Shown here: positions 5,273-27,828 of the stretch, one piece after another
Layout: every line of letters begins with the position of its first letter
Position numbering within the stretch: position 1 is the stretch's first letter
Assembly (NCBI GenBank): GCA_963971305.1
Contig: OZ020316.1
Location: 15,828,745-15,892,744, forward strand
Length of the DNA stretch: 64,000 nt
From: Arcuatula senhousia
Lineage: Eukaryota; Mollusca; Bivalvia; Mytilida; Mytilidae
Direction of reading: 5' to 3'
Made by a program: the position numbers and the translations under genes
Notes under the pieces: generated by a model
What the model was told of the DNA's origin: nothing
Database searches by the model: none
The model's input: the letters and a program-made list of their open reading frames with translations, nothing else

Positions 5273-5484
5273 CAATTACTCTTCAAAACTTTGTATTAAA
5301 CTAAGGAGAAAAAGAAAAATTCAAAATAAAAACATTTATTAGGCATCAGATTTTCATGGACATACGACATACACATAATGACATATGACACAAAGAGACA
5401 GGTCTAGACAAATACAAACACGGTTACATTCCAAGCACATGTAACACACAAAGACAAACATATAACATATATATCAAAATACCC
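5273..5484 (-). repeat. Ngaro 3' repeat B2
   Basis: 212 bp, nearly identical to 5843-6054. Both begin CAATTACTCTTCAAAACTTT and end ATATCAAAATACCC; an AATTC versus AAATC difference is visible near the start. This is the outermost end of the retroelement. Confidence 0.85.
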
Positions 5485-6054: not shown

Positions 6055-6340
6055 GCCAAACCGAAGGTCAGCCAAAAAACAAATAAAAAAAAAATAAAAT
6101 AAAGTCAAGTTTTACCTAGGAATCAGTTACCACAAACCTCTCCTTCAACAATAGGAGATAAGCTTAAAGTAACCTTTCTTAATAAAATTGAAATATGTTG
6201 TAATTCACTAAACAAAACTTAATCCAATCCAAATCTAGAATAAGTGACCACCAACCTCTCCCTCAACAATAGGAGATAAGCTTTAGGTAACCTTCTAGTC
6301 GATAAGACGAAAATAAAATAATTAAATACAAAAATCCAAC

Positions 6341-6904: not shown

Positions 6905-6919
6905 TTAATACACATGCAA

Positions 6920-7768
6920 TTATTTAACAACAAGACATAAACCTATGTTAGCTAGGCAGTATTTTAAAAAAGAATTGAATAGTTTGTAACTAACAGGCTT
7001 ATTTCTATGAGACTTGACATCTTTGATTAAAAAGGCCGGAGAACTATTATTCAAAACTTTAAAACGCTTACACATTATAATATAATCTGAAAAAGGACAA
7101 AGATCTGAATTCACATTTCTAATAAGTGGAATTTCTAACTTTCTCTCTCCAAATTGAATAGTCTTACTCCAATTAAAAGTTACAACCAACATATCACTAA
7201 AAACTTTAATGTCCTCTCTTTTTAGACACTTAAAGGCTTCACCTTCTGGTCCTACAAGATTAGATTTTCGACACATAAGAAAAAACGAAAATAAAAACAA
7301 ACACCAGTAAGTCAAATGATTAACATTATTGAAATCTAAAACGGATTTAATTCTGAGTAAAATATCTGGTGTAATAGGCAAAGCGGGTCTAATAGCATGA
7401 GGATTTACCCTACGCAAACCTTTAAAAAATAATCTAAAATAAAATGAATCAAAATGAGAAAAGGGCAAATCTAATATAAGATGTAAAGTTTTAACCCCTT
7501 GCACATAATTCCTAACAGAATCAACGCTCACAAAGGAGCGAGATAAAAACTGACAATATAGACAGATTGTCTCTAAAGAACATGGTAATGCAATTAGATC
7601 ATAAAAAGTACAAAATAATAAAAAAGATCTCCATTGGATCCTTAAATTTTTCTGTGTTCCTACAGCGTACGCACTTTTCAAAGAAAACTTAGATTCAGCT
7701 CTAAGATTTTCTAAATCACCACTCATGTTGAAACCTAAAAAGAAAAGGATCTGGATGAATCTCAACAT
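6920..7768 (-). pseudogene. Tyrosine recombinase, C-terminally truncated
   Basis: Resembles the DNA integration enzyme of DIRS/Ngaro elements. The N-terminal SAM-like region (GTQKNLRIQWRSFLLFC, then SVRNYVQGVKTLH) and the start of the catalytic domain with the box I arginine (FFLMCRKSNLVG) are clear. The protein then stops soon after FNSFLKYCLANIGL. Family members continue here with the HxxR box and the nucleophilic tyrosine, neither of which is present in any frame before the hydrolase. A start at 7726 (MSGDLENL) overlaps the end of the polymerase frame by 11 nt (ATGAGTGGTGA); an upstream ATG at 7768 adds 14 hydrophobic residues and looks less likely. Probably catalytically dead unless the missing half is supplied from elsewhere. 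Confidence 0.75.
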
Positions 7769-9482
7769 GTGATAAAAATTCTGATCGATTGCAGAATTCT
7801 TCTCGAAAACTAGATGATAAATACCATCTGGAAAGCAAATCTGAGGCTCGGTTATCTTCAGAACTTAAGTGAATTGCTTTTATTTCGCATTGCTTCACCG
7901 CACACACAAAAACTAACTCCCTCAAAAGACTCTGTAAAATTCTACTCCGGGTCCTACCCCTATTAATCACCTGAACTGAAACCTCATTATCACAATAAAT
8001 ACAAATCTTAACACCTTCAACAGCCCATAACTTCAAACACACAATCACTGTTAACAGTTCTAAGGCATTAATATGAAATTTCTGTAATCTAACAAACTCC
8101 GGAAACTCACAATGAAAATACTGAGAACTGGAAATACCACCACAACCTGACAAGCAAGCATCACAAGAGAAAAACAAATCTGGCTCAGTCCATTCTTCCA
8201 GACTAATCATGGAAATACCATTATAAGTCAGCAAGAATTTAGACCACCAGTACACATCTTTCTTTAACTCGGACGAAACATCCAACAACTGAAGATCATC
8301 TGAAAACTCTCTCAGAAAATTCAAAATTCTAGAAATGAAAATTCTACCAGGTTTGACACAGCTAGCAACAAAGTTAAGCTTTCCTATAAGAGACTGAACT
8401 TCTTTCCTTTTAGCAGAATCCTTATCCAACCACTTAATTACCAACTCTGAAATTTCAATTAAACGATCCGGTGTTACTTCTAAAGTCAACTTATCTGAAT
8501 CAAACCAAACCCCAAGAAAAGACATCCTCGGAGAAGGTTCACAGGCTTTTTCAACTGACTCTTCTAACCCACAACAATCTAAGACCACCTTCATATTATC
8601 AAAAGACCTCTGAGCTTTACCCTGAACATCCGCTCCAGCAAAATCATCAAGATAATTAATAGCATCAACATCAAACCTAGACATGATAAAGTTCACAGCA
8701 CTAGTTATACGTTGACAAATATAAGCTGAAGATTTTAAACCCATAGGCAATACCCGATCAACAAAAATGTGACCACACCAAGAAAATCCAACAAAACTAT
8801 AATCCTTGGGATCTAAAGGAATCTGTCGATAAGCACGGCGCAAATCTCTTTTAAAAAGTAAGCAATGTCTACCCTTTCTTTTAATTATCTCAACTAACCT
8901 GTCAACATTGGGGTAATGAAGATCAACCCTATCTCCAAGATAATCAGTTTTATCTATACAATCATTGACAGAATGACCTCTCGGAAAACTGAGATCCATA
9001 ATAATACGCCTTTCATCAGAACCAGACTTCGGAACAGAATTCAAAGGAGATAAAACTAATTGATCCAAAAATGGACTTTCTTCAAACGGGCCTAAAATTG
9101 CTCCGTAAGAATTTTCCTTCTTGATATATTTATCAATGTCCTTGGGATAACAACGAGCCCCAGAATGATTCCTACATTTCCCTTCTGACAATTTAACATT
9201 TTCAGTGTGTTTAAGACCAATAGGCCAACCAAATTCCAAAAATTCACAAATAACTTTATCAAAATAAAACTCTAATTGAGCACGCCAAAAACTAATGTGC
9301 AATTTAGAATACACAGGAATCCTTAAGCTAGAAAAATTGTATGAATCTAAAGAAACAAGTTGATTGTGTAAATCAATCAAACTTAATTGACAAAAACTTT
9401 CATTCTGTAAAATACTATTACAAAGAGCGCAATGATCAACATTAAAAAATACATATGAAAGTTCAGGTAAACTAGGAATTAG
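7716..9482 (-). CDS. Reverse transcriptase-RNase H (pol), in frame with gag past a TGA
   Basis: Copies the element's RNA into DNA. Numbering from codon 9380, RT shows LSPLNSVPKSG and RRIIMDLSFPRGHSVND (about 110-140), FKRDLRRAYRQIPLD (176-190), LPMGLKSSAYICQRIT (211-226) and the catalytic YLDD box (243-246). RNase H follows with SCDACLSGCGG (Asp about 407), NALELL (Glu about 441), IYCDNE (Asp about 464) and NRASDLLSR (Asp about 514). All key acidic residues are present. The frame is open from the codon after the gag TGA, about 588 residues, and has no ATG near its start, which fits synthesis by stop-codon readthrough. It ends just inside the recombinase frame. No frameshift or internal stop was seen. 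Confidence 0.9.
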   Translation of the reverse strand, partial: LIPSLPELSYVFFNVDHCALCNSILQNESFCQLSLIDLHNQLVSLDSYNFSSLRIPVYSKLHISFWRAQLEFYFDKVICEFLEFGWPIGLKHTENVKLSEGKCRNHSGARCYPKDIDKYIKKENSYGAILGPFEESPFLDQLVLSPLNSVPKSGSDERRIIMDLSFPRGHSVNDCIDKTDYLGDRVDLHYPNVDRLVEIIKRKGRHCLLFKRDLRRAYRQIPLDPKDYSFVGFSWCGHIFVDRVLPMGLKSSAYICQRITSAVNFIMSRFDVDAINYLDDFAGADVQGKAQRSFDNMKVVLDCCGLEESVEKACEPSPRMSFLGVWFDSDKLTLEVTPDRLIEISELVIKWLDKDSAKRKEVQSLIGKLNFVASCVKPGRIFISRILNFLREFSDDLQLLDVSSELKKDVYWWSKFLLTYNGISMISLEEWTEPDLFFSCDACLSGCGGISSSQYFHCEFPEFVRLQKFHINALELLTVIVCLKLWAVEGVKICIYCDNEVSVQVINRGRTRSRILQSLLRELVFVCAVKQCEIKAIHLSSEDNRASDLLSRWYLSSSFREEFCNRSEFLSHVEIHPDPFLFRFQHEW

Positions 9483-9485
9483 TCA
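9480..9485 (-). promoter_or_regulatory. Candidate readthrough stop TGA-CTA between gag and pol
   Basis: The gag stop reads AAG TGA CTA, and pol continues in the same frame. UGA followed by CUA is the best-known readthrough-prone stop context in animal cells and several RNA viruses. That the two frames agree is seen directly; readthrough itself is inferred. Confidence 0.6.
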
Positions 9486-10184
9486 CTTTCTTTTAGCATT
9501 TGGACAGACATCGGCACATTCGGGGTGATTACGTTGTTGTCCATCTTTCTGTAAACAAGAGGCACAAATGTGCAAAACTGAACGTACCACACCTCGAATT
9601 GTATCATTATGTGGAGAAAATTTTTCTTCGCATTTATTCCGTTGGTATTTGTAGCAAAACCACACAGAATTCTTAGGAAACTGAGACTTACTATTTTTTG
9701 AATCTGCCTTATCAACAGATAAAAGTTTCCCTGTCAAAATTGCACTTTCCAAAACCTGCGGGTCATCTTTCCAAGATTTTTTCCCAATTTCAATTTGACG
9801 AAGCCAAGCGGCATAAAAATCTAATATAGCTGACCATTGATATATGTTGGAAAAATAAGAAATCTTTTGAAGTAAACTCAGTCTACCTTCAATTTCAGAT
9901 TTATCTTTACAAAAATTGGAAATAATTTCCAACTCACCAGCAACGAATTGCTTAAATGTCAATTGTTTAAATTTAATATCTCGATTTACATACTCAAACT
10001 GTAAGTAATTGTGAGGAAAACATTGCGGATTCCTAACCTTATCAGAAGATTTAATTCTTATACCGGATTTACAAGTCTTTCTTCGAGAATTGTTAAACTG
10101 ACATTCAGAAGAGTCAGACCCAGAATCAGAATTCTTACTAGAAGAATCAGAATCAGAGTCTGTACTAAAACCCCGATCTCGATT
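9483..10184 (-). CDS. Gag-like nucleocapsid protein, 5'-truncated
   Basis: Structural protein of the retroelement. The frame stays open from the element boundary at 10184 to a TGA at 9483-9485, about 233 residues, with the true N-terminus missing. It starts in a Ser/Asp-rich stretch (STDSDSDSSSK, SDSGSDSSE) followed by a basic segment, a helical core (FVAGELEIISNFCKD, LDFYAAWLRQIE) and a Cys/His cluster near the C-terminus. That cluster has the pattern WFCYKYQRNKC, then H, HICASC, and NHPECADVC, which resembles the zinc-binding tail of DIRS/Ngaro Gag proteins. It is followed in the same frame by pol after the stop codon TGA CTA. Confidence 0.75.
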   Translation of the reverse strand, partial: NRDRGFSTDSDSDSSSKNSDSGSDSSECQFNNSRRKTCKSGIRIKSSDKVRNPQCFPHNYLQFEYVNRDIKFKQLTFKQFVAGELEIISNFCKDKSEIEGRLSLLQKISYFSNIYQWSAILDFYAAWLRQIEIGKKSWKDDPQVLESAILTGKLLSVDKADSKNSKSQFPKNSVWFCYKYQRNKCEEKFSPHNDTIRGVVRSVLHICASCLQKDGQQRNHPECADVCPNAKRK

Positions 10185-10546
10185 TGGGCGGATGTAACTG
10201 AATTTTTCACATAATTTGAATTTAAGAATAGAAACGACTTTCTAATAGTGTTGTGTATTTTGTGATGAATTTGAAGTTGATGCACAGTTTTGACGTATGT
10301 CTGAAAGGGTTTATAATGGAGATCTTACTTATGGTTATGTAACAGTGATTGTATTTGGTTTTTGTCAATCAATAACAAATAATTTGAAAAAGAAATATAA
10401 TGTTAATTGTGAGTTTAAGTTTGAGAATTATATAAACCTTAAGATGGCGAGGAATTTTTTTAAAGATGGTGAAGAAAAAGAAGTCCGCGTACTGACAAAT
10501 CATCTTCAACCACTTTGGGTAGACATTCCAGTTGCACATTGGGTAA

Positions 10547-10722
10547 AACAAGTGTACGCTATTGCAAGGGTACGGTATAGCCTGACGACCCCGGCATATT
10601 CCACCTTGGGAACAAATCCCAGTCGTTCTGTTGGCAAAGGAGCATGACACAATGTCAGTTTCTGAGCGCTCTTGTGGACTTGAATCCACAAGCTTAAGGC
10701 TGCGTTTTATTTATTCGCAAAA
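10547..10722 (-). repeat. SINE-like fragment in segment copy 2
   Basis: Duplicate of the fragment at 1330-1505, with scattered substitutions. Confidence 0.6.
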
Positions 10723-12064
10723 GGACACTAAGCAAACACATATCCGCCACAAACATTATTTAGTTCTATATTACAAAAAAATAACAAACGCTAATTTTGA
10801 CCATTAAAGGGTCATCTGTAAGCTTCGACCCGATGGAGATTTTTGTAGAGGTAAATGAGCTGAAGGTTTATAAAAATCAAGCATCAGCATTTCTCTATCT
10901 ATTTTTTATTCTTCAAGTGAGGGCAAAACATGAAAAAATACAATGTTTAACCTTAAAAGGGTCATACTTGTAATCCCTATAAGGGGTCATCTAACAACTT
11001 TGACCGAAGGGGAAACCTGCAAATTCAGGAGAGTCAAAGATCCTTAGAATTTTTCCTATATCTTATAGTTGCTGAGTTGGGATTTTACCCCATATTTTAA
11101 TTTTAGTTACAACGGCCATGTTTTCTATTGAATATTCTAAATGAGGATGGTTTACTGACAACATGTCATAAATCAGCAAAATTTTGGTCAAACTGGTTCA
11201 GTGATTTCAAAGGATAAGATTTTAAAAATTGTTTACGGAGGACGACGGACACGACGTTACGTTAGATATTGCTACTGTCGGAAAAATATTGTTTTTCTTT
11301 TAACTATTGCGTACTTGTTGAGACGCCAGTGTCAGAATATACAACTTCTATACAAATTCTGAAAGCTCAAAAACAGGGCTACGGTCTGGTATGAATAATA
11401 ACATCCAAAGAAGGATCATTTAAAACTAAATTGTTAAGATTCTTTAAAACAACGTCAAATTGTATGCTGCCCCGTGTAACAATTGTGGCTCTCGGAAAAT
11501 GTTTTGACACCAGAAAAAGTTGAGGTAGACTTTCGAAACTTAGTAAATATGATCTATATATTCCCTTTGTGACAATGTCAAAATGGCTTTTTCAAAGCTC
11601 TAAATTAGAAGATCTCAGTACGAATACAGAAATGGTTTGTTTGTCCCGCGGCGACAAAACTGAAAAATATTCTGGAACATTTTACAATTCTCAAATTAAT
11701 TACAATTTTTTAGCATCCATGACTATATGGTTACTTTGTAATAAGCCTAAACTCTTTGATTACAAATTTTCTTTCATGTTGTATACTCCTTTATCCAAAA
11801 ATTTACCAAAAAAGCTTGACTCGCAGATTTGTCCCCCAGCAGTTGTATCATGATTGCATGAGTTTATATGATCTTTTGCAAGGTGAGCTAAAAAGGTAAG
11901 CGGTCCAGGGCATGATCCGTTTAATACTGTCGTGGAAAATTATTCCTGAATCTCGACAAAGTTGAAGCTTAGTTATATGAGTAAGTTACCTTGTCACCTA
12001 GGTGGCAAAATGTTTTTACTGGGCTTCTAATTGTCCTCTCTGTCAACAACGCTTCGTTTGCTAG

Positions 12065-12240
12065 ATGGATTCCTTAAATTTATCCTCCGAGTCAGAGATT
12101 AAAGAAACCACCGAATCTTCTTGCTTCACGTCTTTCTTGGATTTAAATCTCGAATTTGACTCGAGTGGTCATCTCAGTACAAAAATATACGACAAAAGAG
12201 ACGATGTTAATATTCATATTATATTATTTTCCCCATCTGA
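12065..12240 (+). pseudogene. Retroelement reverse-transcriptase remnant
   Basis: The frame contains SFLDLNLEFDSSGHLSTK followed by IYDKRDDVNIHIILF. This wording (FLDL..., then TK.YDKRDD...) is typical of a region near the RT of a retroelement family widespread in invertebrates; the family name is not certain. Only about 60 residues are recognisable before the frame runs into another repeat. It is present in segment copy 2 only and cannot be functional alone. A remnant of the C-terminus of what looks like the same family lies at 41657. Confidence 0.5.
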
Positions 12241-12334
12241 AAAAAAAACATATCCACCTCACCAGCATAAGGGGTGTATATTTCGCAACTTTTTCGATAT
12301 GCCAGGGCTTGTACTATTTTTTAATAGAAGAAAA

Positions 12335-12580
12335 TGAGATGTGGAATAAGTGTACGCGACACAACCTACATTATAAACGTATATTTTAAATATCCACAAT
12401 GGAAAACAGCCAGCAGCCTTCAATGTGACCAGCGGTCGCTGCTCGCTGTTTTTCAATTGGCCCCTGGATTGAAAATAAAATACATATGATTCAAGCCCAA
12501 TCCCAAAGTGCATTGAAAGACCCTCTTCTTGACAAAAAACAATTAACAAAAATTCGACTAAATACAAACATAAGCTTTGA
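12335..12580 (+). repeat. Dispersed repeat ('gagatgtggaataagtgtacg' family)
   Basis: The words 'gaataagtgtacgcgacaca', 'ccacaatgg', 'cagcagcctt' and 'caattggccc' recur at 40938-41180 and, reversed, at about 55465-55640. Unclassified, short, non-coding. Confidence 0.6.
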
Positions 12581-12834
12581 TAAAGATTCCTTTTGATAAA
12601 GATTTGATAAAGAAACCCGACGTCGTTGTCTCTGCGATCAGCTTTAAGACCAAGGTTATAAGAAAATACGCCTCATACGATTTCTTAAAAAAATGTTCTT
12701 CCAATATCAGACACTGGTAGCTAAATTTTAAATTATCTCAGTTGAAATGATTCGTGATTGTTTCAATTACTCTATGACAGTTTGTTGTACTGATATGATC
12801 ACCTCTTTATCCCTATTATGTCTCACAACAGTGA

Positions 12835-13050
12835 TGTACTTTGTGTAACCGGACCCTAAGATCGCAATAGAAGATGAATGTTTGATGCCAACCCAACATT
12901 TCTTTTGAAATGCCTGTACCAAGTCAGGACCATTGCGATCTTTAATTTCTCTAGTATGTATATTTGCTTTGTTTTGTCTTTTATTCTTTGATATACGAGA
13001 TTGGTCAACTAGTTTTTTTTTGATTACATTTATCAATTTCTTTAATTCAG
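12835..13050 (+). repeat. Dispersed repeat, duplicate of 2285-2520
   Basis: Same family and context as in segment copy 1, with small indels. Confidence 0.6.
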
Positions 13051-15797
13051 AATCAATGGGTAGGAAGAGAAAAAAATTGCACAATCTGATAATGAAATAA
13101 AGCAACGAGTCTACAGCCTACTAAAGGAACCATGAGCTTACATGCTTTAAGTGACTTACTGTTAGCTACAAGGAAAAAGTCATGTTTTTCGTCAGCAGAG
13201 TTTTGTTGATGGTAAATTTGTTGTAGAAAGCTCATCTGACGGTTTGGAAAAGCATATTACTAAACAGGGTTTAGACAATCAATGAGAGTCATAATGCTCA
13301 AGATGACAACCAACCACAAGAACGTTGACTAGGAACACAACAATTATGACTGGTTAACGGCCCTATAACAAGGTACGTGGTATGTCGGCAAATTAGTTGA
13401 AGTTGATGCTGATGAAAGAATTTTAATATAAAACTAAATTAAGAGGATCCTATACATAAAACAACCCTGCAAAACTGGACCTGATTTGGGTATACAAACA
13501 ACATACTTAGCAAAATAAATAAGCCACTTGCAAGTGGAAAGTCTGACAGATCGTAAGTATTTTCAGCTGATGCTTTGGAGACAATAGCAAAGTCTATGTA
13601 GTATTCTTTCGTAACAGCATTTTATTGGACCTTATATATGACATTACTGAATAAAATATAGCACTATGTATGGTTTATAAAGAGTAAAACATGTTTTGTG
13701 AACAACAAGTTGAAATAAGAACAATTTGCTTCTCATTACTAACTGCTCTTCCTTACTGGGTACTCCGTAACAAATCAAATCCTTAACTTTGATGAAAAGC
13801 CATACCTACTTATTATATCTACATACTACCATAATGACAATAGAAAATAATGAGATGTAAAGATTGCAGACATGCCTACATAGAGAATTTGGTAATTTTT
13901 AAGCACTCGTTTTTATTAGATAATAGTTGACCTATAATGTTTGGCTTTTTTTCGAAATAAATCCAACTATCATTTAGAAATTTGAGGTACCCTTTCACCT
14001 GCATGAAATGCATTACGAAATGAAACAGTAATGTTGTAGTTGTTGTAGTTTATTTTTAAACTCTGGTCCATTGTGAACAATTCCTTACAAATGCGGTGAT
14101 TCTAGTTGTCAATTTCTTGCCTCTTGGGATATACATTCAAGTTAAGGGACTGGAATATTACCGAGGATTTTGGTCTTAAAAATATCAGATAATCACCTCT
14201 ATAAATATAAAACTTTATAAATAACATATAATAGTCGATATATAAGTTAATCTCCAGTGGTTCACCCATCTCAATAGAAACAATATATATGTTTGCTTGT
14301 TTTTTCTTCTTCTTTATTATAACAATCAATGTAATTATACTTAATCATTGTATTTGATTCTATTTGTAATTTATCAGCCCAAGTAATTTGGGCGTCTTGA
14401 TTGACAAATAAAGCATCTTGCCTCTACTTCTAAGCAGCAAAATTGGGAACATATTCCAGATTTGATGTTATTTTTTTCTTCAGAAACTTACACAAAGATA
14501 TATAAAAAATTGGAAAAGTCAGTCTAAACATATCTATGAATACTTTATTTTTTTTCTAAAATAAAGTAGTACAAATGCACGACTTCAATGAGACAGACTG
14601 ATTGGTGCCCAGAATAAACTGATTTTTTTTGTTTCCCAAACACCCCTATATTTCTCAGGACATTGCATGCTGGGGCCGTTGCAGAAAACCTGACCGAAAA
14701 CTTTATTGCACTGTCGAAAATTCAACCTTTCTCGCTGCAGGGTTTGTCACGATAGGCATACTCTTTGGTCCACTGGCATACTTTTTTCTTTATTATTTTG
14801 TGTTATTCGAAACCGGTGTACTGTATTGGCCTTAACCCATCTCTATTTTCCATCATTTCGATAAAGAATATGCGCTGATTAAAATAATTACCAATGAACC
14901 GGTTTTAAAACCTTAGTTGCTCTCCTGTCCATATTTTAGGGACTCGCTGGGTTTAGTCGGTCATACTGAAAACCAAATCACATGGTAACAGCGAAGAGCA
15001 GTATATCCGTATACATGGTTTATCATTGATCTTATTGAAAGTACATTTTATAAACATAAATACGTAGAGCCCTTGAATTATCTTTCTTTCCTCTAGAATT
15101 GGGTTATTCTATAGTAAGGATGCATAAAATCGCTTTACACCATATAGTTCAAAAGGTTGAAGCTGTGTGTAGTTGCTTGAAAATGTGTGACGAAAATTTG
15201 TATTCAAGTCCTTGATATATAAATTTTAAGTATTCATCAAACAAGAAGTAGCTTTAAACCACAGAGTACTATCGGAAGAAGCTGCCTGGCAAGTTTCATG
15301 AGCCTGCTGCAGTTGCCTGGAAAATTGCGACAGAATTTTTTTTTGTGATGCCGCAGGACGCAGGACGACGGATAGTGCCAAAGTGACCCCTATAAATGTC
15401 GCTTCTGCAACACGTTGCAGTCGACATAATAACCATAACAATTAAACTTAGGCTTTTGTGTAGATTGCTTATTCCACCTATCCCATTATTATAACTTTAA
15501 CCATGAAGACTTTAGCAAAAACAGATTTATAGATATATCTTGTAGAAAAAGTTAGCTTTTTCTGTATATATTTGTTACAATTTTTATATGTTTGTTATAG
15601 TTGTGGGTTTACTCATAAGTCCCTGGTTTGGTCCGCTATCCCATTTAAAAGGTCTGCAGCGTGTAGTAGTAATACATATTGGTCAAAGAACAATTGAATG
15701 ATGTATCCATACCATCTTCTATGACGTACATTGTCCATTTTAGCACGACATACAAGTGTCTGTGATATGAGTGGTGGGCCCTTTGGGATTAGTTTTT

Positions 15798-16844: not shown

Positions 16845-16850
16845 ATCCGA
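16845..16850. repeat. Left 6-bp target-site duplication ATCCGA
   Basis: ATCCGA abuts the left end of the palindrome and is repeated directly after its right end at 23577-23582. Confidence 0.7.
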
Positions 16851-16923
16851 AGTAGTAGTACTCGTGGTTCTCGTTTATTATTTCTCGGGAGGATTGAGGA
16901 TTAGGCGCCATTGCGCAGGTATG

Positions 16924-17017
16924 TGACGTCATATCCACTTCCGGTCCGCCATCTTGTTTCCGGTTCCACCATTCTGCTTCCGGTCGGCCATCTTGCTTCC
17001 GGTGACGCAACATCCGG
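16924..17017 (+). promoter_or_regulatory. CRE plus ETS/YY1-like motif array, left end
   Basis: TGACGTCA at 16924-16931 (CRE-like) is followed by an array of about 19-bp units CTTCCGGTCCGCCATCTTG. CTTCCGG is an ETS core and GCCATCTTG a YY1-type site. The next gene inward (minus strand) points toward this end, so the array may drive a transcript of its own or act on either strand. Confidence 0.5.
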
Positions 17018-17019
17018 TA

Positions 17020-17559
17020 ATTAAGGGGAGGTAATTCCGCAAAGTCACCGAACGGTAAAAGGCTTGTAACTTAGTGATTCCATGACCGATTCCTTTCGGG
17101 TTTGTTGCATTGTTTTTAGTAAGACAATGTCTCTTTGATGATTTTCTTTGTGGTCCTCAGTGGTCATTAGAGGCTTGACCAGTAGGTGACCATTTCCTAT
17201 TTCTTATCAAAGGTGGGGTTGTCGTATATCGTTGGAAAGGTCGCAAGGTGTAGTTGTCATTTCTGAGTTGTTTGAGTCGGTAGTGGTCAGTGGTCAGTCA
17301 GGGCTTGACCATTAGGTGACCCCTTTTTCTTCTTTTTGTATACTTAGCGTGTAATATGTCATTGTAAAGCTTGTGAGGTCTAGTTTTATATCCTTTCTTT
17401 CGTGTCGATATAAGGGAAGTAACTCTTGGTTTCTACTGTGTTTTAAGTCTTGTACTTGATACCGTTTTGTAAGGAATTTGCCGGGCTTTGTGGGGTAGTA
17501 CTGGTTTGATCTTTTTTATAGGGCGTTAGGGATAACAAATCGATTTTAAGTTTCGATAC
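17020..17559. other. Sub-terminal non-coding part of left arm
   Basis: No ORF. The phrase GGCTTGACCANTAGGTGACC, preceded by 'gtggtca', occurs twice about 130 bp apart (17173 and 17303). It mirrors 22865-23400 in the right arm. Confidence 0.5.
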
Positions 17560-17565
17560 TTTATT
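17560..17565 (-). terminator. Poly(A) signal of left-arm gene
   Basis: TTTATT on the plus strand (AATAAA on minus), about 20 nt past the TGA of the acidic protein. Confidence 0.6.
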
Positions 17566-17584
17566 TTGAACACAGTAATAGGTT

Positions 17585-18171
17585 TCAGTCTTCATCCTCG
17601 TCGTCTTCACTCTCCTCGTCAGGCCTGAACTGTTTTATTTTCTCATCCAGCAAGTACTTTCTCTTCTCAGTAGCGTATTTCCAAGACTCTTCATACTCAT
17701 AATCTTCATCGTCCCTCAGTCGTTTTGCTGTTTGTTTGATCTTCTTGTGGAGTGGATCTCGTGCCATTTCCATTTGCCACATAATGTTATTGACGTAGCG
17801 ATTTTTTAGAGCTTCTCTATAGAGCGGGAGCAAATCCAAGTCAGCCTTTGATATTGCCTCTTTTTCGTTGTGACCTTTTTCCGTGTATTCATCCACTTTC
17901 TTTTCGTGTTCGTCTTTGTAGCAGATCATCACTTGTTCAATAAAGCCACCCCACGGATCGAACTGTTCTCCGGGGTAAGTTTCTTCGTCTTCAGACAAGT
18001 CGTCACTCTTTTCTGATTCCGTATCCTCCTCTTCCTCTTCCTCAGTTTCCCATTCCGGGTCCTCCTTCAACCATTCCGGTTCCTCCATTTTTTTTTATGC
18101 TTTTGTTCTTTGTGTCTCTGTAGATTGAACAACTTTTGGCTTGTGTATCCGCATTCGTCGCAATGGTACAT
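17585..18171 (-). pseudogene. Left-arm C2H2/acidic protein gene, frameshifted
   Basis: Counterpart of the intact right-arm gene at 22236-22823. The zinc-finger start is present (ATG at 18171, wording MYHCDECGYTSQK), but one base is missing in an A-rich stretch just before the MEEPEW segment, which puts the finger out of frame with the acidic body. The body alone can still be read from ATG 18088 as 167 residues: a Glu/Asp-rich N-terminus, a middle region with FDPWGGFIEQVMICYKDE and ARDPLHKKIKQTAKRLRDD, and an acidic C-terminal tail. Either a pseudogene or a finger-less product; family unrecognised. Confidence 0.6.
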
Positions 18172-18610
18172 CTTTCCTTCTCGGCGTCCGGTTTCTATCT
18201 GATGATTTTTGTTCCGTCTTAGTAAATTTATCTATCACTTCTGAAAAGTGTACCATGTTGCTAACAGAGCGCTTATTACACGGACGGATTAGATCGGGTC
18301 TTGTTAAATTGTCTTTCTTTCTATTCCATGCATGGACAAAGAATGCATTCCTCAATGCTGCTAAGCTCTCTCTACTGTATCCAAGCCTCCATGTTTTAAA
18401 TCTACGCCATTTTTTAAATATTCGCTGACAGTCTATGCATGGCACATTTTGTTCCCAATTGTTAAATTCGGTTTTCGGCTTCCCCACCTTACATTTACGA
18501 CAAACACGTTCCCCGTTCTCACTTTCAATGTTCTTTTCTATGGGTTTTAGAAGATAATCCATTACATTTACGTGCGTCTTGTTCGAATACATTCGAGCCA
18601 CTGACAACAT
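18095..18610 (-). CDS. Left-arm zinc-ribbon-like basic protein
   Basis: 171 residues from ATG 18610, chosen because the apparent upstream extension has no ATG. A four-cysteine pattern, VCRKCKVGKPKTEFNNW then VPCIDC (Cys 37, 40, 58, 61), resembles zinc ribbons seen in viral and mobile-element proteins. The rest is basic (KKWRRFKTWRLGYSRESL, RNRTPRRKDVPLRRMR), suggesting nucleic-acid binding. It overlaps the next gene in a different frame. It differs from the right-arm copy by an Arg/Gln change and an earlier stop after ETQRTKA. Function not recognised. Confidence 0.55.
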   Translation of the reverse strand: MLSVARMYSNKTHVNVMDYLLKPIEKNIESENGERVCRKCKVGKPKTEFNNWEQNVPCIDCQRIFKKWRRFKTWRLGYSRESLAALRNAFFVHAWNRKKDNLTRPDLIRPCNKRSVSNMVHFSEVIDKFTKTEQKSSDRNRTPRRKDVPLRRMRIHKPKVVQSTETQRTKA

Positions 18611-18689
18611 TGTTAATTTATTTTGCCTTTTCAAAATTGTATCGTCCAATCATCTCTCAGCATTTTATCACGTGACTAACTCTTTGCTC

Positions 18690-19032
18690 TTCTTGCTCTT
18701 TTGATTGCTCATTTTGCTCTTTTGCAGCTCATCTTGCTCTTTTTCTTGCTCATCTCGCTCTTTTGCAGCTCATCTTGCTCTTTTCCTTGCTCATCTTGCT
18801 CTTCTGCAGCTCTTTTTTGCTCTTTACCTTGCTCATTTTGCTCTTTTGCAGCTCTTTTTCTTGCTCATCTCGCTCTTTTGCAGCTCATCTTGCTCTTCTG
18901 CAGCTCTTTTTTGCTCTTTACCTTGCTCATCTTGCTCTTTTGCAGCTCTTTACCTTGCTCATCTTGCTCTTTTGCAGCTCATTTTGCTCATTTACCTTGC
19001 TCATCTTGCTCTTTTGCTGTTTTTCTTACTAA
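18690..19032 (+). repeat. Low-complexity TTGCTC.TTTGCAGCTCAT repeats, left arm
   Basis: Irregular tandem copies of 'cttgctcttttgcagctcat' and shorter variants. They stay open in several frames as Leu/Ser/Cys-rich nonsense, which explains long apparent reading frames here. Mirrored at about 21350-21725. Confidence 0.8.
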
Positions 19033-19042
19033 TTTGACCACC

Positions 19043-19235
19043 CAGCAGCAGCAGCAGCCATTTTACCCTCCCCCCTTTCACTTACGCAGCAGCAGCAGCA
19101 GCAGCCATTTTACCCTCTTCCCCCTTTTCACTTACGCAGCAGCAGCCGTTTTAAGACCTTCTCCCCCCCTTTTTCACTTACGCAGCAGCAGCAGCAGCAG
19201 CCGTTTTATCCTCCTCTCCCCTTTCACTTATGCAG
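19043..19235 (+). repeat. CAG-containing tandem repeat, left arm
   Basis: Four units of roughly 47-60 bp, each a (CAG)n run (n about 3-6) followed by 'ccattttaccctc..cctttcacttac'. CAG counts differ between arms, as expected of microsatellite drift after the arms formed. Confidence 0.8.
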
Positions 19236-19544
19236 CACCAGCCGATTCCTTACCTTCTTCCCTTTTCTTCTAGTTGTGTTTTTCCTTTCCTGTGTTAACT
19301 TGTACAACTTTTGTCAAGTAGGGAATCCAGACCACTTTATACTTTTAATTTTCCATAGGCCCTGTATTAAATCTGTTGGCGACTCGTGTCACCCCCAGAT
19401 CTCAGCAATGAAGTCGTGTGTAATCATGCGGAACTAACTATTCCATTGAGATTATTTTGTACTTGATAACCCAATATCTTGTAACCAGTTCAAACCGGTT
19501 TCTTTTCGTTCCGATACTACCCCCTTTGCATTTCTATTTTTAAC

Positions 19545-19580
19545 CCTTACCCTAACCATACCCCTAGCTATTTTGTAATT

Positions 19581-19614
<34 letters not shown>

Positions 19615-20235
19615 CCCCTAGCTATTCTAGTTTGTAATTCTAACCCTAACCTTAAACCTAACCCTAACCATAATCTCTAACCTTAACCTTTTCTCTTTTC
19701 AGTTCTATTTTTAGCCCTTACCCTAATTCTAACTCTAACTCTCTTTGATAGTGTTGTCATTTTATTTCTAACCCTAACCCTAATTCTTTCTTCTCTAACC
19801 CTAACTCTCTTTTCTCTAATCCTATCCCTAAGCTCTCTTCACTAACCCTAACCCTAACCCTTTCTCTTTCCTTTTCTATTTTTTAACCCTTATCCTAATT
19901 CTAAGTCTCTTTGTCTTTGTTGTCATTGTATTTTTAACCCTAACCCTAACTCTCTCTTCTCTAACCCTAACCCTTTCTCTTCTATTTTTAGCCCTTATCC
20001 CCCATTCTAACTCTAACTCTATTTGCCTTTGTTGTCATTGATTTTCTAACTCAAACCCTTATTGTCTTTTCTCTAACCCTAACTTTCTCTTCTTTTACCC
20101 TTTCTCTTTCTATTTCTTAACCATTTACTCTAACCCTAACCTAAATTCTCATCTGTTGTGTATAGTATTTCTATTCATGTTCGTACCCTAACCCTAACTC
20201 TTCTGCTATGAAGCCTTAACCCTAACTCTTGATCT
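19545..20235 (+). repeat. Degenerate telomere-like CCCTAA repeats, left arm
   Basis: Many CCCTAA/CCCTAACC words mixed with 'ttctcttctattttta' spacers. The orientation is C-rich strand on the left and G-rich strand in the right arm, the reverse of a head-to-head telomere fusion. Confidence 0.8.
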
Positions 20236-20261
20236 CTTTGCACGTAGTGCTCCTTTTGTTC

Positions 20262-20370
20262 TGCTTTTCCTGTTCATGAGCGGTTTGTAATATCACGTTT
20301 GCGCCAATTTCTGATTCTTTGTGAAGTTAAACAAAAACAATGCAAACAATAATGCATTTACAAAAACAAC
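20262..20370. other. Unpaired centre of the palindrome
   Basis: About 109 bp with no inverted partner, flanked by the innermost stem (20241-20261 with 20371-20391, one mismatch). The only non-duplicated sequence in the element. Confidence 0.75.
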
Positions 20371-20392
20371 AACCAAAGGAGCACTACGTGCT

Positions 20393-20767
20393 AAAAATAG
20401 AAGAGAAAGGGTTAGGTTTAGAGAAGAGAGAGTTAGGGTTAGGGTTAAAAATACAATGACAACAAAGACAAAGAGACTTAGAATTAGGATAAGGGTTAAA
20501 AAATAGAAAAGGAAAGAGAAAGGGTTAGGGTTAGGGTTAGTGAAGAGAGCTTAGGGATAGGATTAGAGAAAAGAGAGTTAGGGTTAGAGAAGAAAGAATT
20601 AGGGTTAGGGTTAGAAATAAAATGACAACACTATCAAAGAGAGTTAGAGTTAGAATTAGGGTAAGGGCTAAAAATAGAACTGAAAAGAGAAAAGGTTAAG
20701 GTTAGAGATTATGGTTAGGGTTAGGTTTAAGGTTAGGGTTAGAATTACAAACTAGAATAGCTAGGGG

Positions 20768-20801
<34 letters not shown>

Positions 20802-20850
20802 AATTACAAAATAGCTAGGGGTATGGTTAGGGTAAGGGTTAAAAATAGAA
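20393..20850 (+). repeat. Degenerate telomere-like TTAGGG repeats, right arm
   Basis: Mirror of the left block, shorter by the 248-bp segment noted above. Confidence 0.8.
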
Positions 20851-21164
20851 ATGCAAAGGGGGTAGTATCGGAACGAAAAGAAACCGGTTTGAACTGGTTA
20901 CAAGATATTGGGTTATCAAGTACAAAATAATCTCAATGGAATAGTTAGTTCCGCATGATTACACACGACTTCATTGCTGAGATCTGGAGGTGACACGAGT
21001 CGCCAACAGATTTAATACAGGGCCTATGGAAAATTAAAAGTATAAAGTGGTCTGGATTCCCTACTTGACAAAAGTTGTACAAGTTAACACAGGAAAGGAA
21101 AAACACAACTAGAAGAAAAGGGAAGAAGGTAAGGAATCGGCTGGTGCTGCATAAGTGAAAGGGG

Positions 21165-21340
21165 AGAGGAGGATAAAACGGCTGCTGCTGCTGCTGCGTA
21201 AGTGAAAAAGGGGGGGGAGAAGGTCTTAAAACGGCTGCTGCTGCTGCTGCTGCGTAAGTGAAAAGGGGGAAGAGGGTAAAATGGCTGCTGCTGCTGCGTA
21301 AGTGAAAGGGGGGAGGGTAAAATGGCTGCTGCTGCTGCTG
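21165..21340 (-). repeat. CTG-containing tandem repeat, right arm
   Basis: Mirror of the left CAG repeat with altered trinucleotide counts. Confidence 0.8.
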
Positions 21341-21349
21341 CTGGGTGGT

Positions 21350-21725
21350 CAAATTAGTAAGAAAAACAGCAAAAGAGCAAGATGAGCAAGGTAAATGAGC
21401 AAAATGAGCTGCAAAAGAGCAAGATGAGCAAGGTAAAGAGCTGCAAAAGAGCAAGATGAGCAAGGTAAAGAGCAAAAAAGAGCTGCAGAAGAGCAAGATA
21501 AGCAAGGAAAAGAGCAAGATGAGCTGCAAAAGAGCGAGATGAGCAAGAAAAAGAGCTGCAAAAGAGCAAAATGAGCAAGGTAAAGAGCAAAAAAGAGCTG
21601 CAGAAGAGCAAGATGAGCAAGGAAAAGAGCAAGATGAGCTGCAAAAGAGCGAGATGAGCAAGAAAAAGAGCAAGATGAGCTGCAAAAGAGCAAAATGAGC
21701 AATCAAAAGAGCAAGAAGAGCAAAG
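21350..21725 (-). repeat. Low-complexity GAGCAAGATGAGCTGCAAAA repeats, right arm
   Basis: Mirror of 18690-19032, somewhat longer through extra units. Confidence 0.8.
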
Positions 21726-21796
21726 AGTTAGTCACGTGATAAAATGCTGAGAGATGATTGGACGATACAATTTTGAAAAGGCAAAATAAATTAACA

Positions 21797-22366
21797 ATGT
21801 TGTCAGTGGCTCGAATGTATTCGAACAAGACGCACGTAAATGTAATGGATTATCTTCTAAAACCCATAGAAAAGAACATTGAAAGTGAGAACGGGGAACG
21901 TGTTTGTCGTAAATGTAAGGTGGGGAAGCCGAAAACCGAATTTAACAATTGGGAACAAAATGTGCCATGCATAGACTGTCAGCGAATATTTAAAAAATGG
22001 CGTAGATTTAAAACATGGAGGCTTGGATACAGTAGAGAGAGCTTAGCAGCATTGAGGAATGCATTCTTTGTCCATGCATGGAATAGAAAGAAAGACAATT
22101 TAACAAGACCCGATCTAATCCGTCCGTGTAATAAGCGCTCTGTTAGCAACATGGTACACTTTTCAGAAGTGATAGATAAATTTACTAAGACGGAACAAAA
22201 ATCATCAGATAGAAACCAGACGCCGAGAAGGAAAGATGTACCATTGCGACGAATGCGGATACACAAGCCAAAAGTTGTTCAATCTACAGAGACACAAAGA
22301 ACAGAAGCATCAAAGAAAAATGGAGGAACCGGAATGGTTGAAGGAGGACCCGGAATGGGAAACTGA
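21797..22366 (+). CDS. Right-arm zinc-ribbon-like basic protein
   Basis: 189 residues from ATG 21797; the upstream in-frame extension has no ATG. Four cysteines (VCRKCK at 37/40 and PCIDC at 58/61) form a probable zinc ribbon, followed by a basic C-terminal half with KKWRRFKTWR and RRKDVPLRRMR. Its last 131 nt overlap the next gene in another frame, a compact arrangement more like a virus or mobile element than a host gene. Role unknown; nucleic-acid binding is inferred from charge and cysteines. Confidence 0.6.
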   Translation: MLSVARMYSNKTHVNVMDYLLKPIEKNIESENGERVCRKCKVGKPKTEFNNWEQNVPCIDCQRIFKKWRRFKTWRLGYSRESLAALRNAFFVHAWNRKKDNLTRPDLIRPCNKRSVSNMVHFSEVIDKFTKTEQKSSDRNQTPRRKDVPLRRMRIHKPKVVQSTETQRTEASKKNGGTGMVEGGPGMGN

Positions 22367-22823
22367 GGAAGAGGAAGAGGAGGATACGGAATCAGAAAAG
22401 AGTGACGACTTGTCTGAAGACGAAGAAACTTACCCCGGAGAACAGTTCGATCCGTGGGGTGGCTTTATTGAACAAGTGATGATCTGCTACAAAGACGAAC
22501 ACGAAAAGAAAGTGGATGAATACACGGAAAAAGGTCACAACGAAAAAGAGGCAATATCAAAGGCTGACTTGGATTTGCTCCCGCTCTATAGAGAAGCTCT
22601 AAAAAATCGCTACGTCAATAACATTATGTGGCAAATGGAAATGGCACGAGATCCACTCCACAAGAAGATCAAACAAACAGCAAAACGACTGAGGGACGAT
22701 GAAGATTATGAGTATGAAGAGTCTTGGAAATACGCTACTGAGAAGAGAAAGTACTTGCTGGATGAGAAAATAAAACAGTTCAGGCCTGACGAGGAGAGTG
22801 AAGACGACGAGGATGAAGACTGA
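22236..22823 (+). CDS. Right-arm C2H2 zinc-finger acidic protein
   Basis: 195 residues from a true ATG. One classical C2H2 finger at the N-terminus (residues 4-25, C-x2-C-x12-H-x4-H) precedes a strongly acidic block (about 40-65). A mixed-charge middle follows with PWGGFIEQVMICYKDE and WQMEMARDPLHKKIKQTAKR, then a highly acidic tail of about 10 residues. The shape (one DNA-binding finger plus acidic regions) would suit a transcription or genome-associated protein, but no family was recognised. Intact here, frameshifted in the left arm. An AATAAA follows 20 nt after the stop. Confidence 0.65.
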   Translation: MYHCDECGYTSQKLFNLQRHKEQKHQRKMEEPEWLKEDPEWETEEEEEEDTESEKSDDLSEDEETYPGEQFDPWGGFIEQVMICYKDEHEKKVDEYTEKGHNEKEAISKADLDLLPLYREALKNRYVNNIMWQMEMARDPLHKKIKQTAKRLRDDEDYEYEESWKYATEKRKYLLDEKIKQFRPDEESEDDEDED

Positions 22824-22842
22824 AACCTATTACTGTGTTCAA

Positions 22843-22848
22843 AATAAA
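22843..22848 (+). terminator. Poly(A) signal of right-arm gene
   Basis: AATAAA 19 nt after the TGA of the zinc-finger/acidic gene, the expected spacing for a eukaryotic transcript end. Confidence 0.6.
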
Positions 22849-22864
22849 GTATCGAAACTTAAAA

Positions 22865-23400
22865 TCGATTTGTTATCCCTAACGCCCTATAAAAAAGATC
22901 AAACCAGTACTACCCCACAAAGCCCGGCAAATTCCTTACAAAACGGTATCAAGTACAAGACTTAAAACACAGTAGAAACCAAGAGTTACTTCCCTTATAT
23001 CGACACGAAAGAAAGGATATAAAACTAGACCTCACAAGCTTTACAATGACATATTACACGCTAAGTATACAAAAAGAAGAAAAAGGGGTCAGCTAATGGT
23101 CAAGCCCTGACTGACCACTGACCACTACCGACTCAAACAACTCAAAAATGACAACTACACCTTGCGACCTTTCCAACGATATACGACAACCCCACCTTTG
23201 ATAAGAAATAGGAAATGGTCACCTACTGGTCAAGCCTCTAATGACCACTGAGGACCACAAAGAAAATCATCAAAGAGACATTGTCTTACTAAAAACAATG
23301 CAACAAACCCGAAAGGAATCGGTCATGGAATCACTAAGATACAAGCCTTTTACCGTTCGGTGACTTTGCGGAATTACCTCCCCTTAATTACCGGATGTTG
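22865..23400. other. Sub-terminal non-coding part of right arm
   Basis: Mirror of 17020-17559; no ORF worth reporting. Confidence 0.5.
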
Positions 23401-23404
23401 CGTC

Positions 23405-23503
23405 ACCGGAAGCAAGATGGCCGACCGGAAGCAGAATGGTGGAACCGGAAACAAGATGGCGGACCGGAAGCAAGATGGCGGACCGGAAGTGGATATGACG
23501 TCA
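23405..23503 (-). promoter_or_regulatory. ETS/YY1-like array plus CRE, right end
   Basis: Units of ACCGGAAGCAAGATGGCGG combine an ETS site (CCGGAAG) with a YY1-type site (AAGATGGCGG), then TGACGTCA at 23496-23503. It has one more 19-bp unit than the left end, so the array has changed by unit gain or loss since the arms were made. Confidence 0.5.
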
Positions 23504-23576
23504 CAGACCTGCGCAATGGCGCCTAATCCTCAATCCTCCCGAGAAATAATAAACAAGAACCACGAGTACTACTACT

Positions 23577-23582
23577 ATCCGA
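23577..23582. repeat. Right 6-bp target-site duplication ATCCGA
   Basis: Direct repeat of 16845-16850, immediately after the ACTACTACT end. Confidence 0.7.
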
Positions 23583-24559: not shown

Positions 24560-25059
24560 TCCTTCATGCAAACATGTAGAAGCACATGTTACATTTGTAA
24601 TCCTCCAGATATAGCAGAATCCATGCTGCTTGGAAGTAAAAGCAATAACTTTCTTATAACTATTTGTATATATTAGGACTTCTTTTTGAATTGGTACATT
24701 TATTCATAAACATTGTTCGATTTCATAACTGTTGAGCTGGGCATCGCCATGTCGCATTTGAATTTGTTATTTCGGCTGCAAATTTTGTGTAAACGACATA
24801 TAGAATATTTAGGTCGATTTATCGCACGTACATTCATTTTGCTCGTAACTTTAAAATACCGTCAGTTTTACCGACAGCCTTTGATATTTTGCATGTAAAT
24901 AATCCTGTATTGCTGTATTTATACAGCAACTTATCTACTTCCTGTTTATAACGAAGGCAAGCTATGTCTTGACATAGCACAAATGGTCAAATGAGACAGA
25001 AAACTACCAGCCGCGAATTTTTCCCACTATCTTTGAGAGTCACTATATAGTGGGCTAAT
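24560..25059. other. Non-coding stretch before the minisatellite
   Basis: Nothing recognised. The last ~60 bases show degenerate minisatellite units. Confidence 0.4.
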
Positions 25060-25945
25060 ATATAATTACCAAAAGTGATTTTAGTGGGCTTACAAACAGT
25101 GATTCTAGTGGGCTTACCTACAGTGATTCTAATTAGCTTATCAACAGTGATTCTAGTGGGCTTATCAACAGTGATTCTAGTGGGCTTACCAACAGTCATT
25201 CTAGTGGGCTTGGCTTGCTTACCAACAGCGTTTCTATTGGGCTAACCAACAGTGATTCTAGAGGGCTTACCAACAGTGATTCTAGTGGGCTTACCAACAG
25301 TGATTCTAGTGGGCTTACCAACAGTGATTATAATGAGCTTGGCTTACCAACAGTGATTCTAGTGGGCTTACCAACAGTGATTCTAGTGGGCTTACCAACA
25401 GTGATTCTATTGGGCTTACCAACAGTGATTCTAGAGGGCTTACCAACAGTGATTCTAGTGGGCTTACCAACAGTGATTCTATTGGGCTTACCAACAGTGA
25501 TTCTAGTGGGTTTACCAACAGTGATTCTAGTTGGCTTACCAACAGTGATTATAGGGGGCTTACCAACAGTGATTCTAGTGGGCTTACCAACATTGATTCT
25601 AGTGGGCTTACCAACAGTGATTCTAGTTGGCTTACCAACAGTGATTCTAATGGGCTTACCAACAGTGATTCTAGTGGGCTTACCAACAGTGATTCTAGTG
25701 TGCTTACAACAGTGATTCTAGTGTGCTTACAACAGTGATTATAGGGGGCTTACCAACAGTGATTCTAGTGGGCTTACCAACAGTGATTCTAGTGTGCTTA
25801 CAACAGTGATTCTAGTGTGCTTACAACAGTGATTCTAGTGGGCTTACCAACAGTGATTCTAGTGTGCTTACAACAGTGATTCTAGTGTGCTTACAACAGT
25901 GATTCTAGTGTGCTTACAACAGTGATTCTAGTGGGCTTACAACAG
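25060..25945 (+). repeat. 24-bp minisatellite
   Basis: More than 30 tandem units of GGCTTACCAACAGTGATTCTAGTG. From about 25690 many units become 'gtgcttacaacagtgattcta', with one C lost, mixed with full units. Because 24 is divisible by 3 the array stays open on both strands as an 8-residue repeat; this is an artefact of the period, not a gene. Confidence 0.95.
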
Positions 25946-26440
25946 GTTTTCAACTGAACATGTCAACAACGGTAACGAATCCACGTAGAATTTTGAATTG
26001 CTGTTAAACAGACAATGCAGTATTTTAGCACGCCGTTTTGATTAATATTAAATTTAAGTCAAAAGTACTTGTTAATCAATAAACTGATTAAAATCAAAGA
26101 AAATTATCTACATAAAATTAGAACAATGTGCATGTCTCCTTTGATTTTTGTTCATGAAGGAAGATAATATAGAACGATGAGTCCGAAATTCACATTTACT
26201 TATCATTGGAACAAAGGGTATAATCAAAATGTATTAAAATTACAAATATATGTTTGCTATTAGGAGTAATTGAACTGATAAAATTTAGTACGTATATATC
26301 TAAAGAGTACAAAATTATTAACAAAATATGAATGAAATTAAATTTATGCTCCCAATTAAACAACTCCAAATTGAAGGTTTTTAAAATAAATGTTCATGAT
26401 CGTTTCAGTTCAGAACAACCAAAAAAATGAACCGCATTTG
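25946..26440. other. AT-rich stretch, nothing recognised
   Basis: No ORF or repeat identified. Confidence 0.4.
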
Positions 26441-26462
26441 ACGTGATTGGGTGGCCCTCGTC

Positions 26463-27787
26463 TATGGCACGCCATATTTATATTTATTCCTCTTTAAAGA
26501 TATCTCATAAAATTTATAAGATATCTCGTATATTTTATAAGATATCTTATCAAATATATAAGATATCTCATATAAATGGTAGTTTATAAGATATCTTATA
26601 AAACATATGAGATATCTTATAAAACATATAAGATATCTTATAAAACAAATAAGATATCTTATAAGACATATAAGATATCTCATAAAGTTTATAAGATATC
26701 TTATAAAGATCATTAGATATCTCATATAAAATAATTTATAAGATATCTTATAAAACTTATAAGATATCTTATAAAACTAATAAGATATCTTATAAAGTTT
26801 ATAAGATATCTCATAAAGTTTATTAAATATCTTATATATTTTATGAGATATCTTATAAGTTATTTTTTTATAAGATATTAAGATATCTCATAAACTTTAT
26901 GAGATATCTTATAAAAAAATAACTTATAAGATATCTCATAAAATATATAAGATATTTAATAAACTTTATGAGATATCTTATAAACTTTATAAGATATCTT
27001 ATAACTTTTATACGATATCTTATAAATTATTTTATATAAGATATCTCATAATCTTTATAAGATATCTTATAAACTTTATGAGATATCTTATATGTTTTAT
27101 AAGATATCTTATATGTTTTATGAGATATCTTATATGTTTTATAAGATATCTCATATGTTTTATAAGATATCTTATAAACTCCCATTTATATGAGATATCT
27201 TACATATTTAATAAGATATCTTATAAAGTATATGAGATATCTTATAAACTTTATAAGATATCTTATATTTTCATAAGGCCTCTTTAAAGATATCTCATAA
27301 AATTAATAAGATATCTCATATACTTTATAAGATATCTCATAAAGTTTATAAGATATCTGATAAACTTTATAAGATATCTTATAAACTTTATAAGATATCT
27401 TATAAACTTTATAAGATATCTTATAAAAAATAATTTATAAGATATCTCATATACTTTATAAGATATCCTATAAACATTATGAGATATCTTATAAACTTTA
27501 TCAGATATCTTATAAACATTATTTTTAGTAGATATCTCATTTTCTTTTAAAGATATCTTATATAGTAAATAAGATATCTTATAAAATTTATAAGATATCT
27601 CATAAAGTTTATAAGATATCTTATAAAGTATATGAGATATCTTATAAAACAATTTTTATAAGATATCTCATAAAGTTTATTAGATATCTTATAAAGTTTA
27701 TAAGATATCTTATAAACTTTATGAGATATCTTATAAAGTTTATGAGATATCTATAAAGAGGAATAAATGTAAAAACGGCTTGCCATA
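26463..27787. mobile_element. Foldback element of ATAAGATATCTTAT palindromes
   Basis: The ends are inverted: TATGGCACGCC...ATTTATTCCTCTTTA at left and TAAAGAGGAATAAAT...GGCTTGCCATA at right. CTCGTC is duplicated at 26457-26462 and 27788-27793; the SINE family consensus has it once (ccctcgtccgc), so this is a true 6-bp target duplication within a SINE fragment. The interior is about fifty copies of a GATATC-centred palindrome spaced about 24 bp. The first ~800 bp fold on themselves around 26885. The terminus-like word CCTCTTTAAAGATATCTCAT recurs at 27279, so a second, shorter foldback follows. TAT...ATA ends with a 6-bp duplication would fit IS3EU-like elements, but no transposase is present. 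Confidence 0.8.
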
Positions 27788-27828
27788 CTCGTCCGCATGC
27801 AGAGGTTGTCAGCTGATATTACGGTAAG

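Follow-up and report, generated by a model that had tools for sequence, protein, structure and literature searches.

Protein-primed replication can yield self-complementary genomes, and it is mostly as such defective by-products that they are known. Here we describe a palindromic element of 6,726 bp, located at 16851-23576 of a 64,000-nucleotide stretch of contig OZ020316.1 from the bivalve Arcuatula senhousia (GCA_963971305.1; hereafter the window, whose positions are used throughout), which has the tips of a Polinton (Maverick) transposon, two genes in each arm, and a family of copies in the same genome. We consider it probable that this family is a satellite of Polintons.

The palindromes resemble Polintons in their (AGT)2-3 tips, in their 6-bp target duplications and in an end zone of ~200 bp that they have in common with the Polintons found here; vertebrate Mavericks, for instance, have (AGT)2 tips and 6-bp duplications (PMC8097293). 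However, the palindromic element lacks integrase, capsid and polymerase and is almost wholly palindromic, and such elements measure 4-9 kb, whereas the Polintons measure 16.7-19.9 kb. Palindromic defective genomes of protein-primed replicons are also self-complementary molecules with two identical tips, but the family described here is heritable and multi-copy, with a shared loop and a gene under selection. Protein-primed viruses have satellites such as virophages, which would be comparable in that a smaller element depends in trans on a larger one; unlike them, the palindromes have no capsid gene that we could see, are palindromic and are integrated in what is probably an animal genome. Foldback elements (Drosophila FB, Galileo and Tetris) likewise have very long inverted repeats, which contain tandem arrays and enclose a short centre (cf. 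PMC3573991 and PMC4079207); the palindromes differ from them in having Polinton tips, two genes per arm and arms homogenised within each copy. The literature on palindromic, foldback, non-autonomous or satellite Polintons, consulted in its accessible parts, yielded no such element; this coverage did not extend to transposon databases and most subscription papers, so absence from print is unproven.

The palindrome and its copies in the genome

The element, as defined by the alignment of its arms and by its tips, consists of a left arm at 16851-19992 (plus strand) and a right arm at 20390-23576 (minus strand), separated by an asymmetric centre of 397 bp (19993-20389). The two arms (16851-19992 against 23576-20390) are 99.7% identical, with 10 mismatches in 3,133 aligned sites and eight indel breaks, mostly within short tandem arrays. 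Both tips read AGTAGTAGTACTCGTGG, of the AGTAGTAGT type, and a 36-nucleotide (nt) tip pattern has two matches in the window compared with 0.00 expected from 100 shuffles. Polinton-type tips had been reported in a preliminary description of this locus, made from the sequence alone, and are supported here. Just outside the tips lie two copies of ATCCGA, at 16845-16850 and 23577-23582 (both plus strand).

Copies of the element were searched for in the assembly (1,036,387,356 bases, 1,803 contigs), using its first kilobase as query, with the following results. First, 58 matches were obtained, 40 of them long (40 scored of 1,043 candidates); 15 inverted pairs spaced 4-11 kb apart, as counted by eye, account for 30 of the long ones. 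Second, among five followed-up matches that had no partner among those listed, a second arm was found for four (L027, L028, L030 and L031); at L029 none was found within 9.95 kb, in a region holding long frames that resemble, by eye, those of long terminal repeat (LTR) retrotransposons. Third, in a sample of 20 loci, namely the window and 19 further loci read in 20 stretches, both tips could be located in 15, window included, the loci with no usable second tip being L021, L023, L029, L030 and L031; perfect 6-bp duplications, all different, flank 12 of these 15 copies. Long inverted repeats make up most of the element, and AGT-repeat tips are present as inverted repeats, both in the window and in the family copies. 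Thus, tips and arms recur elsewhere in the genome with duplications of their own and, as the preliminary description had proposed, the window element integrated whole, as one unit, with its 6-bp duplication.

Four copies (L017-L020) of 6.9-7.1 kb are palindromic down to a centre of 12-103 nt. L013, L018, L019 and L020 have one loop sequence in common, which is also present inside the longer centre of the window element, at about 20300-20345; the 12-nt centre of L017 is a telomere-like repeat. Since several copies have the same loop, and many the same two genes, this is an established family rather than a fresh defective molecule. The two orientations of the loop were considered as flip/flop evidence of hairpin transfer and discarded, given that they amount to the same palindrome inserted either way round.

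False palindromes can come from read foldbacks during assembly. However, the flanks beyond the duplication are unrelated and the differences between arms are private to each copy, both of which argue against an artefact of this kind; the window palindrome is real. The boundaries at AGTAGTA-type tips, together with exact duplications in 12 of the 15 copies just mentioned and in all seven copies of a second class of palindromes, described below, leave the artefact a negligible probability.

A 1.6-kb stretch of both arms could be compared in 14 of the 20 loci (excluded were L012, L021, L027, L028, L029 and L031). On the tree, the two arms of a copy pair as sisters in all 14, and by plain distance they are mutual nearest neighbours in 13. 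The arms of a copy diverge by 0 to 2.3%; 133 of the 147 left/right differences include a state absent from all other copies in the set, and in each of the 14 copies 2-12 private states are shared by both arms. Mutations of the lineage are thus found in both arms and those that postdate insertion in one, which points to one arm templating the other before insertion. The palindrome, not the single arm, is the heritable unit, and the arms were made copies of one another before they were inserted. The same logic applies to LTRs.

Gene conversion in the chromosome after insertion could also keep the arms alike, as long palindromes can convert, and the sisterhood of the arms would then be silent on replication. 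We regard this as unlikely, because old copies have many differences that their arms do not share, which speaks against ongoing conversion: L023, L025/L026 and L030 have 36, 28 and 21 left/right differences, respectively, spread along the stretch, and few fixed private states (4-6). The overall divergence of up to 2.3% and the private state in most of the differences point in the same direction.

Polintons and polymerase palindromes with matching ends

The tip AGTAGTATAGATGCACCGAT of sister palindromes (e.g. L015, L016, L017 and L019) occurs 163 times in the genome, against no occurrence of a reversed-pattern control. Of 100 places listed, 53 take part in inverted pairs, with 14 pairs at 4-9 kb, nine pairs at less than 400 bp and four at 16.7-19.9 kb. 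The last four elements have the 20-nt tip at both ends and perfect 6-bp duplications in every case (ATGGTC, TAAATT, TCGTCA and GGTATC). Their genes were read from two halves, the left half of C3 and the right half of C2, which carry a C2H2 frame; an integrase (rve, 1.7e-10; Chromo, 5.9e-10); a polymerase-like protein of 1,167 amino acids, which has NSSYG and MDTDS motifs and no Pfam match; and an adenain-like protease (PF00770, E 0.005) below the cut-off. Further frames, with no database hit, presumably correspond to the capsid genes of Polintons by their size and order. An ATPase was not identified in these two halves, nor was an internal inverted repeat found in either. Inside one Polinton, a frame on the minus strand (L057:7156-8121) has a CARD domain that passes the cut-off (PF00619, 1.2e-5).

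In a multiple alignment, the tip zone of the palindromes, which in the window spans 16851-17050 (plus strand) with a mirror at 23377-23576 (minus strand), resembles the Polinton ends for about 200 bp. A BLAST comparison of the window arm with the right end of C2 gave a match inside the outer 168 bp, at up to 96%, and one extra match in a low-complexity stretch of 36 nt; the exact match to Polinton tips is that of the sister tip variants of the same family. The palindromes and the Polintons therefore have, at sequence level, common ends, which makes the Polintons candidate helpers present in the same genome. The integrase supplied from elsewhere that the preliminary description had invoked would probably come from them, judging by these ends. 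Its further question, whether a Polinton carries the same 3-kb end, has a positive answer for ends of the same kind over ~200 bp; the rest of the arm is, apart from the low-complexity stretch, unmatched in the two Polinton halves read.

These comparisons bear on the origin proposed in the preliminary description, in which one Polinton end folded back once to give a defective molecule that Polinton integrase inserted. The Polinton tips, the 6-bp duplication and the presence of Polintons in the genome agree with such an event. Nevertheless, the arms do not match the two Polinton halves read beyond the end zone, several copies have the same loop, different copies have different duplications, and the family has genes of its own, with ORF2 under selection. 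With the likeness confined to the end zone, we rejected a single foldback of this kind as very improbable, and replaced the one-off molecule by a gene-bearing family, although the foldback of a Polinton end may have been its first origin.

The exact tip variant of the window occurs 37 times, with 11 inverted pairs at 2.6-6.9 kb, as counted by eye, plus one at 263 bp and one at 11.9 kb. The first 6 kb of the latter (L064, C13:29482400-29488400) hold palindromic arms that are nested or concatenated, two having the same orientation, and a PolB match on C6 lies ~3.9 kb away from the 263-bp pair, which is presumably the centre of a palindrome of the second class. A genome search with rve (150 scored of 1,963 candidates), in which LTR integrases probably dominate, gave no inverted pair by eye among the matches listed.

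A second class of palindromes came from PF03175, which has 193 matches in the genome (76 scored of 873 candidates). The 150 matches listed correspond to 76 gene loci, among which there are 21 divergent inverted pairs (42 genes), none convergent, one on the same strand and 34 unpaired within this list. Seven pairs were examined, and all are elements of 13.7-14.0 kb with one PolB per arm, AGTAGTA outer tips and perfect 6-bp duplications. Beside the centre, the two arms are sisters in 7/7; for the outer arms, this holds in 6/7. Their polymerase is a DNA_pol_B_2 (8e-56) with SLYP and DTDS motifs, to which the polymerase-like protein of the Polintons is 33% identical over 124 amino acids (E 5e-15). 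The C14 element, read furthest though not whole, encodes a PolB whose N-terminus bears C2H2 fingers; this was the only frame identified inside the element.

At the centre of all seven elements, a spacer of 221-267 bp separates inverted AGTAGTA motifs, and in six this spacer matches the outer tip zone of the window by BLAST (C1 has no match); the left tip zone of the window can be aligned with these centres as well as with Polinton ends. The tip variants AGTAGTATAGATGCACCGAT, AGTAGTATATCAGCACCGATC and a 14-nt variant beginning AGTAGTATAGAGGG recur both at the tips of the ORF1/ORF2 palindromes and at the centres of the PolB palindromes. Internal copies of terminal repeats that adjoin long inverted repeats are described for Teratorn (PMC6431247) and are comparable to these tip-like zones; Teratorn is, however, a fusion of a herpesvirus with piggyBac, measures 41-182 kb and has terminal repeats of 18 bp. 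The C14 element (L034 and L035; C14:15672311-15686171), ~150 kb from the window, has centre arms that are nearly identical and outer arms at a distance of 0.196, the right one being near the C4 element, so that exchange between elements is possible.

Six-base-pair duplications also exist in other superfamilies of transposons. The family could be a foldback-type cut-and-paste transposon whose likeness to Polinton tips is due to chance, and its long arms with internal tandem arrays do recall Foldback and Galileo (for Galileo, PMC3573991). Against this, Polintons have the 20-nt tip as well as the adjoining zone, the PolB palindromes share the architecture, and neither a transposase frame nor the transposase-bearing relative of another class that the preliminary description had thought of was found in the copies whose frames were listed. 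We find this explanation very improbable.

Genes and other features of the window

Each arm carries two overlapping genes that point outward from the centre, named after their open reading frames (ORFs). ORF1 encodes 189 amino acids in the right arm (21797-22366, plus strand), zinc-ribbon-like, and 171 in the left (18095-18610, minus strand). ORF2 encodes 195 amino acids in the right arm (22236-22823, plus strand), with a C2H2 finger and an acidic helical domain, and 167 in the left (17585-18088, minus strand), where a frame change separates the finger and leaves the domain only. Integrase, capsid, PolB, ATPase and protease genes were not found in the window element, whose arms each hold ORF1 and ORF2 only; the element is therefore not a Polinton in its own right.

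The pooled ratio of nonsynonymous to synonymous polymorphism (pN/pS) of ORF2, for the intact frames of 14 elements among the 20 loci, is 0.24, a value biased low by the exclusion of loci without an intact frame; ORF2 is, by this measure, under purifying selection. From 7,985 scored candidates, a profile of ORF2 retrieved 54 relatives (E <= 1e-3), all of which lack a precomputed Pfam domain, while the search with a single ORF1 sequence retrieved one. The closest relatives of ORF2, P0001, P0002 and P0008, are on contigs, the longest of 1.3-2.1 kb, that are perhaps transcripts. Neither protein had a match in Pfam, PHROGs or PDB that would assign a function; a weak match of ORF1 to endonuclease VII (PHROG, E 9e-4) does not lead us to claim a nuclease. 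The structure predicted for ORF2 has a mean pLDDT of 78 and gave nothing at E <= 0.001 in fold searches, and that for ORF1 (mean pLDDT 48) is too poor for use. Viral contigs scanned with ORF2 patterns gave 54 and 39 stretches, none confirmed, and three viral contigs with an internal 17-mer of the tip were judged chance matches. Otherwise unrelated proteins of L036, L056 and L057 (PolB and others) start with C2H2 fingers, as does ORF2 of the window, as if these were a common N-terminal tag.

In the left tip zone, the (AGT)3 tip is followed by an array of CTTCCGG and GCCATCTTG motifs. Together with TGACGTCA, these motifs crowd 16900-17050 and its mirror, Polinton ends and the centres of PolB palindromes; we take them to resemble cyclic-AMP response element (CRE), ETS and YY1 sites, and the array is perhaps one of promoters. 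A GCTCTT/GCTCAT tandem array lies at 18684-19018 (plus strand), with a mirror copy at 21369-21723, and telomere-like repeats are interspersed on both sides of the centre (19540-20860), CCCTAA occurring 21 times in the left half and TTAGGG 16 times in the right; similar repeats occur near some tips of the PolB class. Outside the element, a reverse transcriptase frame (RVT_1, 2.3e-10) and an adjoining GDSL/SGNH-lipase-like frame (3.7e-7, just below the cut-off), both on the minus strand, lie within 964-13787, flanked by direct repeats that are 96-98% identical and 9.2-10.5 kb apart; we presume this to be an element of Ngaro/DIRS type. Minisatellites follow at 24989-25963 (24-bp array) and 26450-27800 (AT-rich, 21-bp array).

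A probable palindromic satellite of Polintons

The reading that we favour, and hold to be probably correct, is that of a palindromic satellite family of Polintons, which replicates through a snap-back hairpin and is helped in trans. Replication would be initiated at the AGT repeats by protein priming; the extra AGT at one tip of one PolB element is as slide-back would predict. By snapping back, the displaced strand would form a long hairpin, in which the paired tips would provide a new AGT origin; the arms would become identical through mismatch repair of this hairpin, or else because one arm is copied around the loop by self-priming. Polymerase supplied by Polintons or by PolB palindromes would act in trans on the shared tips, and Polinton integrase, acting likewise, would bring about integration.

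Several observations weigh against this reading. Three of the 15 copies with both tips located lack a perfect duplication, since L022 has one mismatch, L012 two and L014 none fitting. In L023, unlike the other copies compared, the two arms are not mutual nearest neighbours when judged by plain distance, and the outer arms of the C14 PolB element differ from each other. The window arm has no BLAST match to the C3 end, one of the two Polinton ends compared, and none of the 37 exact tips of the window variant is paired at 16-20 kb. ORF1 is under little constraint, with a pN/pS of 0.73 (intact frames of 12 elements among the 20 loci). Finally, nothing of a hairpin, a terminal protein or an extrachromosomal form is visible in the sequence, and the source of polymerase and integrase is one that we infer from shared ends only.

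A broader proposal, which we advance tentatively and think less probable than not, is that of a multipartite mobile system of heritable palindromes, that is, protein-primed, self-complementary genomes that replicate by hairpin. The PolB palindromes would then be a dedicated supply of polymerase, and the Polinton would supply integration and perhaps packaging. The occurrence of the same variants in the centre zones of PolB palindromes and at the outer tips of ORF1/ORF2 palindromes suggests that the parts exchange a common end module.

One genome holds two classes of palindromes together with Polintons whose ends match, which makes these ideas directly testable. If the satellite reading is true, a satellite would be added to animal Polintons, the divergence between arms would provide an insertion clock, as in LTR elements, and self-complementary genomes would form a family that is stable, bears genes and is dispersed over a genome.

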